DNA from: Candidatus Endomicrobiellum basalitermitum
GTDB taxonomy: Bacteria > Elusimicrobiota > Endomicrobiia > Endomicrobiales > Endomicrobiaceae
Length of the DNA stretch: 56,654 nucleotides
Direction of reading: 5' to 3'
NCBI GenBank assembly: GCA_031282525.1
Contig: JAITDN010000001.1
Span: forward strand, 101,977-158,630
Within the stretch, counting starts at the first letter, position 1; each line of letters opens with the position of its first letter. Positions 6,818-11,609 of this stretch are shown here, in pieces. The notes below the pieces were generated by a model. The model did no database searches. It was not told where the DNA came from and worked only from the letters and a program-made list of their open reading frames with translations. Both the position numbers and the translations under genes were made by a program.

Positions 6818-7615
6818 ATGATTGTAGTAGTGATGCTAAGGAGTATTAAAGATAGGGTATATGCTGATACTGGGTATGTTAGTTTAAGACTTAATGATAA
6901 AGTTATAGTTGAAACTGAACATGGAGTTGAGGTTGGAACAGTTTATAATAAGGTTGAAGGTGTGTTGAAAGATGAGATTATTGTGAATAAAATTTTGAGA
7001 AAGATGACGGATGATGACAAAAAGAAGTTTATTGAAAATAATATAAAAAGTTTAAAAGTTCGAAGTATAGTATTGAGAAAAGTTAAAGATTATAATCTCG
7101 ATATGAAATTGACATGTGTTCAATATGTTTTTGATCGTTCAAAACTGTTCGTGTACTATACTTCTGAGACAAGAGTTGATTTTAGGAAACTCATTAAGGA
7201 TCTTGGACATGCTTTGAAAACTAGAATACAAATGGTTCAGATAGGTGTGAGGGATGAATCAAAAATATTTGGTGGGATTGGAATGTGTGGGCAAATTTTG
7301 TGCTGTCGGAGTTTTTTAAAGGATTTTAATTCTGTAACTATGGATATGGCTAAAGAACAAGATTTATATTTAAATACGACAAAACTTTCAGGACTTTGCG
7401 GTAGACTTATGTGTTGCATAGCTTATGAAAATGAAACTTATAAAGATATGAAGAAAAGTTTACCTGAAATAGGGAAGACTGTTTTTACCTCAGATGGTAA
7501 AGCAAAGCTTGTAGCGATAGATTGTATAAAGGAAAAAGTAGTTGTTGATTTTGGCAATAAAACGCTTAAAATGTTTAAGATAAACCAAATTAAAAGTATT
7601 AAGAGTAAAATGTAG
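6818..7615 (+). CDS. ricT: PSP1-domain protein, RicT/YaaT family
   Basis: Homologue of Bacillus YaaT (RicT), part of the Ric complex that binds iron-sulfur clusters and affects RNase Y-dependent RNA processing. The conserved PSP1 core carries six cysteines: Cys157, Cys162-163, Cys194 and Cys199-200, in GMCGQILCC and GLCGRLMCC. Placement between holB and metG is the classic context. Partners RicA and RicF are not in the window, so the function here is inferred only from the family. An AGGAG about ten bases upstream supports the ATG at 6818. Confidence 0.88.
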   Translation: MIVVVMLRSIKDRVYADTGYVSLRLNDKVIVETEHGVEVGTVYNKVEGVLKDEIIVNKILRKMTDDDKKKFIENNIKSLKVRSIVLRKVKDYNLDMKLTCVQYVFDRSKLFVYYTSETRVDFRKLIKDLGHALKTRIQMVQIGVRDESKIFGGIGMCGQILCCRSFLKDFNSVTMDMAKEQDLYLNTTKLSGLCGRLMCCIAYENETYKDMKKSLPEIGKTVFTSDGKAKLVAIDCIKEKVVVDFGNKTLKMFKINQIKSIKSKM

Positions 7616-7681: not shown

Positions 7682-9223
7682 ATGAAATTTTATATTACAA
7701 CTCCTGTTTATTACGCGAATGATGTTCCTCATATAGGGCACTCTTATACGACTTTAGTTTCCGATGTTATTGCTAGATGGAAAAGATTGAATGGTTTTGA
7801 TGTTTTTTTTCTTACAGGAACTGATGAACATGGTGCAAAAATTGCTACTGTTGCGAGTGGGAAAAATAAAACTCCACAGGATCTATGTGACGAGATGAGT
7901 GCTAGATTTAAAGAAATGTGGAAACTTTTAAATATTTCTTATACAAAATTTATACGCACTACAGAACAAAAACATTTTATTTCTGTTGAGAGAATAGTAA
8001 AGATTTTATTCGAAAAAGATTTTATATTTAAGAAAAAATACGAAGGATTATATTGTTTAGAGTGCGAAAAATTTTACTCTCAAAAGGATTTAGATGAAAG
8101 TGGAAATTGTCCGTTTCATAAAACGAGTCCAGTAATTCAGTCCGAAGAAAATTATTTTTTTAGGCTGTCGTCTTTCCAAACTGAACTTTTAGAAAGGATA
8201 TCTGATCCAAATCACAAAGAGTATATAGAAATACAACCAGAGGAGAGAAGAAACGAGATTATAGGGAAGTTAAAATTGGGTCTTGAAGATATAAGTTTTT
8301 CAAGAACAACTGTAGAATGGGGGATCCCGCTTCCTTTTGATAGTAAACAAACAGTTTATGTTTGGGTTGATGCATTGATAAACTATATAACCGGAGTAGG
8401 TTATATAACAGATGAGGCAAAGTTTCAAAAATACTGGCCGGCTGATATGCATTTAATGGCAAAAGACATTTTATGGTTTCATTCAATAATTTGGCCTGCT
8501 ATTTTAATGGCCGTTAAACTCCCGCTTCCTAAGAAAATATATTCGCATGGATTTTTTACTATAAATGGAGATAAAATGTCAAAGTCTTTAGGTAATGTCA
8601 TATCTCCTAGTGAGCTTGTTGATAAATATGGTGTTGACGCTACGAGATATCTTACGGTGACTCTCATACCATTTGGTCCTGACGGCGATATTTCGTGGCG
8701 AGAGTTAACGTCAAAATATAATACCGATTTAGCGAATAATCTTGGAAATTTAGTTTCGAGAACTATAAAAATGATTGAAAAATATTTTAATTCCCAATTG
8801 CCGCAAAGCACGATTAATTTACAATTGGCAAAAGAAGTTGCGGTGATTCTCAAAGAAGATTTTGCTGACAGTATAGATAATATGCAATTTCATAGAGCCG
8901 CCGAAGTTTTACAAAATGTGATTACAATTGTAAATAAACAAATTGAAATTGACTCTCCATGGAAGCTTGTTAAAGTAGATATAGAAAAACTTTCCTCTTG
9001 TACTAGTTCTTATTTGCAGGCGATAGGTATTGTTGTAATGTACTTGCTACCGTTTATGCCGACATTATCTGAAAAAATATGGGATATGATAGGTGGGGTT
9101 GGTAATATAAACGAGATTGCAAAAAAATATTTTGCAGACATGATAATTCCAGAAAATGGATTTTTAGTTCCGCAGATAAAATTAAATGCAATGGAAATTT
9201 TATTCCCGAGAATTGAAAAATAG
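7682..9223 (+). CDS. metG: Methionyl-tRNA synthetase
   Basis: This class I synthetase charges tRNA-Met. The HIGH signature appears as HIGH in VPHIGHSY (17-20), KMSKS near residues 298-302, and a zinc-binding knuckle of the Cys-x2-Cys...Cys-x2-His form near residues 125-146. At 513 residues it is a short form without the C-terminal EMAP-like tRNA-binding/dimerisation domain. The start follows GGTGGAG. It is the fourth gene of the tmk operon. Confidence 0.97.
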   Translation: MKFYITTPVYYANDVPHIGHSYTTLVSDVIARWKRLNGFDVFFLTGTDEHGAKIATVASGKNKTPQDLCDEMSARFKEMWKLLNISYTKFIRTTEQKHFISVERIVKILFEKDFIFKKKYEGLYCLECEKFYSQKDLDESGNCPFHKTSPVIQSEENYFFRLSSFQTELLERISDPNHKEYIEIQPEERRNEIIGKLKLGLEDISFSRTTVEWGIPLPFDSKQTVYVWVDALINYITGVGYITDEAKFQKYWPADMHLMAKDILWFHSIIWPAILMAVKLPLPKKIYSHGFFTINGDKMSKSLGNVISPSELVDKYGVDATRYLTVTLIPFGPDGDISWRELTSKYNTDLANNLGNLVSRTIKMIEKYFNSQLPQSTINLQLAKEVAVILKEDFADSIDNMQFHRAAEVLQNVITIVNKQIEIDSPWKLVKVDIEKLSSCTSSYLQAIGIVVMYLLPFMPTLSEKIWDMIGGVGNINEIAKKYFADMIIPENGFLVPQIKLNAMEILFPRIEK

Positions 9224-9339: not shown

Positions 9340-10107
9340 ATGATAATTGATACACATGCTCATATAACGGATGTGAAGTTCGATGTCGATAGGGAAGTTG
9401 TTATACAAAATGCTTTTAATTTGGGTGTAGAAATAATTTTTGAGGTAGCTTGTGAAAGTAGTTATTGGGATAAGGCTTTAGAGTTTTTAAAAAGAGATAA
9501 CATTTTTGCATCATTTGGGATTCATCCTAATGATGTGTTGAAAACAACTCATGAAGATTTTGATAAATTAAAAATTTTAGTTCAAAATAAAAAATGTATA
9601 GCTCTTGGTGAAATAGGTTTGGATTATCATTATGATTCTTCAATAGAAAATATTAATTTTCAAAAAGAGTTATTTATAAAACAAATTGATATTGCTAATA
9701 AATATAATAAACCTATTATTATTCACTGTCGTGATGCATATGAGGATACAATTGGTGTTCTAGAAGAATATAAATTTGCTCCAAAAGGTGTAGTACACTG
9801 CTTTTCTGGGAATCTAGAACAAGCTAAAATATTTGTTAAATCTGGATTCTTGCTTGGAATTGGCGGGATTTTGACGTACAATAAATCTGATAAATTGAAA
9901 CAGGTTGTTTTTGAAACTGATATAAGTAATTTGTTATGTGAGACTGATTGCCCTTATCTTGCTCCTCAAAAATATAGAGGACAAAGAAATGAGCCATCTT
10001 ATATAATTGAAACTTTAAGAGAAATTGCGAAGATAAAAAAGATGTTATTTAGTGAAGTGGCGCAAGTAATGACGCAAAATGCGTTGAAATTATTTAATGT
10101 ATATTAA
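9340..10107 (+). CDS. tatD: TatD family metal-dependent deoxyribonuclease
   Basis: A TIM-barrel metallohydrolase with 3'-5' exonuclease and DNA-repair-associated activity in characterised members. Family metal ligands are visible: His6 and His8 in DTHAHI, Glu91 in LGEIGLDYHYD, His129 in IIHCRDA, His153 in VVHCFSG, and Asp203 in ETDCPYLAP. The 255-residue length is usual. It follows metG as in many bacteria and is paired with a TatD-linked radical SAM protein 78 bp downstream. Confidence 0.94.
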   Translation: MIIDTHAHITDVKFDVDREVVIQNAFNLGVEIIFEVACESSYWDKALEFLKRDNIFASFGIHPNDVLKTTHEDFDKLKILVQNKKCIALGEIGLDYHYDSSIENINFQKELFIKQIDIANKYNKPIIIHCRDAYEDTIGVLEEYKFAPKGVVHCFSGNLEQAKIFVKSGFLLGIGGILTYNKSDKLKQVVFETDISNLLCETDCPYLAPQKYRGQRNEPSYIIETLREIAKIKKMLFSEVAQVMTQNALKLFNVY

Positions 10108-10185
10108 ATTGAATGATTAAGTATGCAAGAGTATGTTTTAAAGTAGATTGTCAAAAATAATGTATTTAATAAAGGATTTTTATAT

Positions 10186-10788
10186 ATGAATACAATTTCT
10201 TATGTTTATGGAAATAATCTATATTTAAATATAACTAATAGGTGTATGATGTCATGTCCGTATTGCATAAAGCGTAAGTGGGGTAACAAGTTTGAAGGAA
10301 ATGATTTAAAACTTGATGTAGAACCGTCTTACAAGGAAGTTATAGATGTTATAAAAGATCCTAAAAAGTACGACGAAGTGATTTTTTGTGGATATGGAGA
10401 CTGCTTAATTAATATTGAGACAGTTAAAAAAATTTCAAGGTGGATAAAAGATAATAGTGGAAGAGTTAGAGTTAATACCGCTGGTCTTGCAAATCGTTAT
10501 TATGGTAGAGATATCTTGCCTGAGCTGAAGGGACTTATTGATATTATATCAATAAGCTTAAATGGGTCAGATCCTAAAGAGTACAATGATATTAATAAGC
10601 CGATGTTTGAAGAAGAATCTTTTGGTGAAGTGGTAAAATTTGCTAAGAGAGCAAAAAATTATATACCTAAAGTTATTATAACTGCTATAGAATTTCCTGG
10701 GTTTGACATATTAAAAGTTGAAAGAATTGCAAAAGAAATTGGCGTACAGTTTAGAATCCGTCCTTATCTAGGTGATGAGGATAATTAA
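10186..10788 (+). CDS. TatD-associated radical SAM protein
   Basis: Small radical SAM protein. Cys20, Cys24 and Cys27 in NRCMMSCPYC form the CxxxCxxC motif that holds the 4Fe-4S cluster, and FCGYGD near residue 67 corresponds to the SAM-binding GGE-type motif. At 200 residues it lacks any extra C-terminal cluster domain. The family is known (TIGRFAM TatD-linked radical SAM) for adjacency or fusion to TatD, which is exactly the context here, but its reaction and substrate are unknown. AAAGGA upstream supports the start. Confidence 0.85.
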   Translation: MNTISYVYGNNLYLNITNRCMMSCPYCIKRKWGNKFEGNDLKLDVEPSYKEVIDVIKDPKKYDEVIFCGYGDCLINIETVKKISRWIKDNSGRVRVNTAGLANRYYGRDILPELKGLIDIISISLNGSDPKEYNDINKPMFEEESFGEVVKFAKRAKNYIPKVIITAIEFPGFDILKVERIAKEIGVQFRIRPYLGDEDN

Positions 10789-10958: not shown

Positions 10959-11609
10959 ATGAGTATAATATTTTGCTTAATAGTGGTGATATGGATATCA
11001 CATGATATAAATAAGTCTCTAGGTTCTTTAGAAGAAGTGAGGATTACACGTGTTACAAAAAAGCGAAGAAAGTATGTTGTAAATGTTCCATCTAAAATAG
11101 TTTGGAGTATAAAATATAATTTGAACTTGAGGAAAGTTGAACTTCAAAAATGTGTAAAAAAAATATTATGAAAACTGTTGAAGAGGTTTTTCATGATGGT
11201 GATTTGTATAATAGCAATGTTTTAAGTGAGAATATAAGAACTAAAAAATATTATCGTCTTGTGCTTTTTGATTCAAATAATGTAACAGAAAGGATTTATG
11301 ATTTATCAAAAGTAAAAAAAATGAAGATGATTGCTACTGCTTATTATCTTGGAGATCCACTTGCATGGAAAGATGGAAAAATAACTTTTCTTGGATATAA
11401 GATGCAAAGGGGTATAGAGCAGCCTGTTGATCCGAGAATTATACCTTTGAAAACACGGCTTTTTATCCCAGATTATGGCCATGCAGGTGATACGGGAGGT
11501 CTTATATAAAGGGAATCGAGTTGATTTGGGTGTAAATAACGTCAAAGAGTAAAAAGCTTGGATGCTTAAAGATGTAATAGTTTACATTTTAGAAAAATCT
11601 GAAAAATAC
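10959..11609 (+). pseudogene. Broken G5/3D-domain (YabE-like) secreted protein
   Basis: The first frame (10959-11171) gives an N-terminal hydrophobic anchor and a G5-like strand region (ITRVTKKRRKYVVNVPSK). The second (11150-11509) continues it and enters a 3D domain (MIATAYYLGDPLAW, KMQRG, DPRIIPL, GDTGG). One missing A in the A8 run at 11156-11163 separates them: nine A's would give a continuous frame. A second lesion near 11508 shifts the final RVDLGV block, with the third Asp, into another frame, and that frame has a TAA soon after. Such proteins bind or cleave peptidoglycan in relatives. Three lesions make it a pseudogene. Confidence 0.85.

Follow-up and report, generated by a model that had tools for sequence, protein, structure and literature searches.

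A radical SAM protein encoded behind tatD in an Endomicrobium symbiont: a probable but loose link to the nuclease

What does a small radical SAM protein (rSAM) do when its gene lies directly behind the nuclease gene tatD, and is it tied to that nuclease? The question arises from a 56,654-nucleotide stretch of DNA (the window) from Endomicrobium, a termite-gut symbiont with an assembly of 719,205 bp (4 contigs, 84% completeness). An earlier note on this DNA had placed a small CxxxCxxC radical SAM gene right after tatD, with both intact, and profiles and coordinates agree (Table 1). The two genes lie on the same strand with 78 bp between them. Each is the sole copy of its family in the assembly, in which seven radical SAM domains are left. 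The description of a genome shedding genes also holds up, as the first gene 3' of the intact rSAM gene is a frameshifted pseudogene. Its intact relatives encode ~276–281 aa, and a 3D domain was found in one of them. A weak terminator-like site lies at 10070-10086, within the 3' end of tatD. A promoter scan performed no better than on shuffled sequences, and no Rfam elements other than tRNAs were found. As developed below, we favor, at a probability of roughly 0.4, a role for rSAM as an accessory enzyme that TatD can do without and that works on nucleic-acid substrates which TatD handles.

Table 1. Coordinates of the tatD–rSAM pair and neighboring features within the window
Feature	Coordinates	Strand	Basis
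ricT/yaaT, upstream in conserved gene string	6818..7615	+	family profile, neighborhood in relatives
metG, methionyl-tRNA synthetase, upstream in conserved gene string	7682..9223	+	family profile, neighborhood in relatives
tatD, YcfH-type group II metal-dependent nuclease, 255 aa, intact	9340..10107	+	family profiles, N-terminal HxH motif
TIGR04038 radical SAM protein (rSAM), 200 aa, intact	10186..10788	+	family profiles, motifs
Pseudogene of YabE-like 3D-domain protein	10995..11609	+	three pieces in two frames: 10995-11156, 11144-11506, 11502-11609

The nuclease matches the TatD profiles over its full length (TIGR00010, E = 1.6e-78; PF01026, E = 2e-76). Its HxH motif is D4-T-H-A-H8, and the metal ligands H6/H8, E91, H129, H153 and D203 are all present. 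TatD enzymes can be sorted into groups by the N-terminal HxH motif (PMC10085689), and by this motif rule the window nuclease classifies as group II, which comprises the YcfH, YjjV and TATDN3 types; it is like YcfH and unlike E. coli TatD itself, a group I enzyme. It shares the HxH motif, all metal ligands and a full-length match with the YcfH-type structures from S. aureus (6l25), T. maritima (1j6o) and E. coli (YcfH, 1yix). It differs from them in that its gene precedes an rSAM gene, and relatives have both fused. Enzymes of the TatD family act as 3'-5' exonucleases and AP endonucleases and are tied to DNA repair (PMC4176340, PMC10085689).

The rSAM is an ordinary member, as judged by its sequence, of TIGR04038 (tatD_link_rSAM, TatD family nuclease-associated radical SAM protein), a named but uncharacterized family. 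It matches positions 1-191 of the 192-position model (E = 7.5e-77) at 257.5 bits, compared with a curated cut-off of 129.7, and shares with the family its small size and the tatD neighbor. It also matches PF04055 (E = 1.9e-15). The second-best family, TIGR04100 (rSAM_pair_X), is a likewise uncharacterized sister of TIGR04038, matched over its full length at 182 bits, below the cut-off of 262. The cluster motif is C20-C24-C27 (CMMSCPYC), followed by C68-G-Y-G-D and, near the C terminus, R190-x-R192. Unlike most of the family, Endomicrobiaceae have GYGD in place of GYGE (22 of the 139 members examined, all 22 from Endomicrobiaceae). In QueE-type enzymes the first two cluster cysteines are spaced further apart (CX14CX2C in one branch), a pattern that the canonical CxxxCxxC of the window rSAM does not match. 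Auxiliary-cluster cysteines were sought in the C-terminal part of the 200-aa protein and none was found beyond C74, so this mark of SPASM/twitch or MoaA-type enzymes is absent. The proposal of an undescribed biochemical system stands in part. The family and its association with TatD are already named by NCBIfam, and the window pair adds little beyond that named family; in the literature searched for TIGR04038, no paper naming the family or describing its reaction was found.

An AF2 model of the window rSAM (pLDDT 94.5, pTM 0.90) returned 45 Foldseek matches at E up to 0.001, and these are radical SAM enzymes. The closest solved folds are pyruvate formate-lyase (PFL) activating enzyme (3c8f, TM 0.72, 18% identity), with which it has a small single-cluster fold in common, followed by BlsE, NifB, viperin, QueE and MoaA. 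Across these structures the partial-barrel radical SAM core is shared at TM 0.58-0.72 and 13-20% identity, whereas the window rSAM is without the extra domains, extra clusters or altered cysteine motif of the latter five. As modeled, the fold is the common small radical SAM core and carries no pointer to a substrate. Among the profiles, MoaA (whose substrate is a nucleotide) and RlmN (an enzyme acting on RNA) were matched weakly. The CxxxCxxC motif together with the fold places the protein in the radical SAM superfamily and predicts [4Fe-4S] binding and SAM cleavage. A fourth cysteine, C68, immediately before GYG(E/D), is invariant in 55 aligned TIGR04038 members and is kept in 51 of 51 proteins that fuse TatD to rSAM; serine replaces it in one divergent member. 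In spore photoproduct lyase a cysteine donates a hydrogen atom, and by analogy C68 could be a hydrogen-atom donor.

How closely the two genes keep company depends on the lineage. Among 149 Elusimicrobiota genomes, rSAM is present in 125 and tatD in 146; because tatD is almost universal in this phylum, phylogenetic co-occurrence carries no information there. A hand count from coordinates finds tatD and rSAM no more than 500 bp apart in ~35 of the 125 carriers, comprising 32 of 40 in the order of the window and 3 of 85 elsewhere in the phylum, all of which are lower bounds owing to contig ends. The gaps in 12 Endomicrobium genomes are -1 to 4 bp, an operonic spacing. In Bacillota, rSAM occurs in 38 of 149 genomes; by hand count, tatD adjoins it in 8 of these, lies ~1-3 kb off in 3 and is elsewhere in 25, and it was not found in the remaining 2. 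The statement that adjacency is usual for the family is therefore right for the symbiont's own order, and fusion is common in other phyla, but it fails for the rest of Elusimicrobiota and for Bacillota. In one genome of the same genus, rSAM has been relocated away from metG-tatD (G033, C4:18525-19100 and C29:6784-7539).

These arrangements revolve around a common string, metG-tatD-rSAM-yabE-ksgA, from which tatD or rSAM can drop out. This allows for a different explanation, in which rSAM has long belonged to the string and catalyzes a housekeeping reaction of its own, with tRNA, rRNA or some small metabolite as possible substrates, and the fusions arose since string neighbors can fuse. Ten class- or phylum-level relatives have rSAM directly after metG with tatD not adjoining. 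In families f7, f8 and f14, metG-rSAM are adjacent with tatD elsewhere, and in a member of f11 with metG-rSAM (G051) tatD was sought and not found. Bacillota have rSAM-yabE-ksgA without tatD, their two carriers lacking a detected TatD point the same way, and the genes are separate in most carriers. MetG and TatD also occupy one open frame of ~696 aa in one genome (L060, G036:C58), so string neighbors can indeed join. We regard independent membership of the string as nearly as likely as the accessory role. It is countered by the persistence of the TatD-rSAM fusion over at least six phyla, often away from metG, where a fusion of mere neighbors would be expected to split more often.

The neighborhood holds no general conserved partner besides tatD and metG; dihydrolipoamide dehydrogenase, TsaE/TsaB/RimI and a CBM48-like protein are each lineage-limited. 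The metG neighbor, and ksgA or tsaE-tsaB-rimI in some relatives, would fit an action of the tatD-rSAM pair on D-aminoacyl or other tRNA-linked products. That argument is drawn from neighborhood, each such neighbor is confined to some lineages, and looking in the literature for TatD together with D-aminoacyl-tRNA deacylase yielded nothing of use, making this the least probable of the explanations considered, and a very unlikely one.

The clearest case for a connection comes from other phyla. A single chain of ~460 aa containing TatD and rSAM is found in 51 of the best 80 relatives (two of the 51 run into contig ends), spread over at least six phyla. Carriers include Desulfuromonadales, Geobacter (e.g. 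Geobacter sp. AOG1, L132:5197-6585), Nitrospirota, Planctomycetota, Edwardsbacteria, Omnitrophota and Ignavibacteriales, and the fusions are often away from metG. In each of five fusions tested, both halves score above their NCBIfam cut-offs, and nearly all fusions keep the TatD metal ligands and the rSAM cluster cysteines. On a midpoint-rooted tree of 136 rSAM domains, the fused state needs 3 changes, a number that is not a count of origins. So few changes indicate a retained arrangement. The AF2 model of one fusion (pLDDT 91.2) has good domains, and its pTM of 0.69 leaves the domain packing not confident; among solved structures, the model is matched best by YcfH-type TatD enzymes and, in its second half, by PFL activating enzyme. 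From these one-chain proteins, a functional link to TatD is probable.

Selection keeps rSAM in this genome, as had been claimed. Relative to the nearest relative (G014), simple Nei-Gojobori counts, which in AT-rich DNA give approximate values, place dN/dS at ~0.13 for rSAM (dN 0.095, dS 0.711), ~0.21 for TatD (dN 0.106, dS 0.497) and ~0.25 for part of MetG (dN 0.119, dS 0.479). Both genes of the pair are under purifying selection. The earlier note had named two observations that would count against it, relaxed selection on the radical SAM gene and independent gain and loss of the two genes. The dN/dS values clearly contradict the first. Of the second, independent loss is borne out, which counts against the claim of strict pairing; that selection ties the genes together in this lineage is not supported.

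In seven Endomicrobium genomes tatD is present and an intact rSAM is missing, both from the position behind tatD and from the rest of the assembly; these assemblies are incomplete, and where no remnant is seen the gene could sit elsewhere, as in G033. On a MetG+TatD tree they form two separate groups, G007 and G028 beside the rSAM-bearing G018, and G029, G021, G031, G017 and G034. In the reduced genome of G029, a decayed rSAM with stops, spread over three frames, lies right behind an intact tatD (L032:1993-2404). Independent loss has occurred at least once on this direct evidence, and probably twice. Acceleration of tatD after rSAM loss was not seen, the TatD/MetG distance ratio being 0.93 without and 1.15 with rSAM among genomes that are not independent, which makes the P value for this comparison unreliable. 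Similarly, Endomicrobiaceae that carry rSAM share 66 conserved TatD positions, and not one of these has been lost in at least 5 of the seven genomes without rSAM. Together these results indicate that TatD does not need rSAM. With the genes apart in most Elusimicrobiota and Bacillota, the tie between them is loose.

The same comparison bears on a further idea, that the target of rSAM is a protein, in the simplest case TatD, which it would modify much as PFL activating enzyme installs a glycyl radical. That enzyme is the nearest solved fold, and a fusion would join enzyme and target. However, no TatD residues were lost along with rSAM and TatD is not relaxed afterwards, leaving the suggested modification of TatD without support. 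No glycyl-radical domain, and hence no recognized glycyl-radical partner for rSAM, was present among the family matches of the window TatD, the one protein looked at in this respect. Characterized TatD enzymes also show activity when each is purified by itself (PMC4176340, PMC10085689). We consider protein modification unlikely.

Returning to the favored accessory role, rSAM would be a minimal one-cluster enzyme with a partial barrel, whose [4Fe-4S] cluster would cleave SAM to yield a 5'-deoxyadenosyl radical. This radical may take a hydrogen from a nucleotide that is damaged or modified, or from a nucleotide end, in either case one that TatD binds or releases, with Cys68 as putative hydrogen donor or relay. 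The product would be a substrate that TatD can hydrolyze, or the reaction would finish the repair. Since TatD survives the loss of rSAM, this step would improve TatD function without being required. A bolder version is doubtful: that TatD and rSAM make up a bifunctional enzyme of an undescribed kind for the repair or quality control of nucleic acids, combining radical chemistry on lesions or modified nucleotides with hydrolysis at 3' ends or AP sites, as one chain in several bacterial phyla and split into two proteins in Endomicrobium. Should the link prove functional, one purified fusion makes it testable what chemistry the radical enzyme adds to an ancient nuclease family. Sister symbionts that differ in having or lacking rSAM provide a clean comparison.

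Several unusual open frames were met during the survey. An apparent TatD-rSAM fusion of 501 aa in G066 (L063) is spurious, created by a run of N that separates the two genes, and further long open frames at rSAM (e.g. L064, L065) look like N-terminal over-extension and not fusions. The rSAM of Endomicrobium sp. Hs463_bin78 (L110:4887-5483) contains one in-frame stop, reflecting either a young pseudogene or a sequencing error. In an uncultured Eubacteriales bacterium (L147), a TIGR04038 domain shares a 454-aa open frame with an apparent Rex-type repressor.
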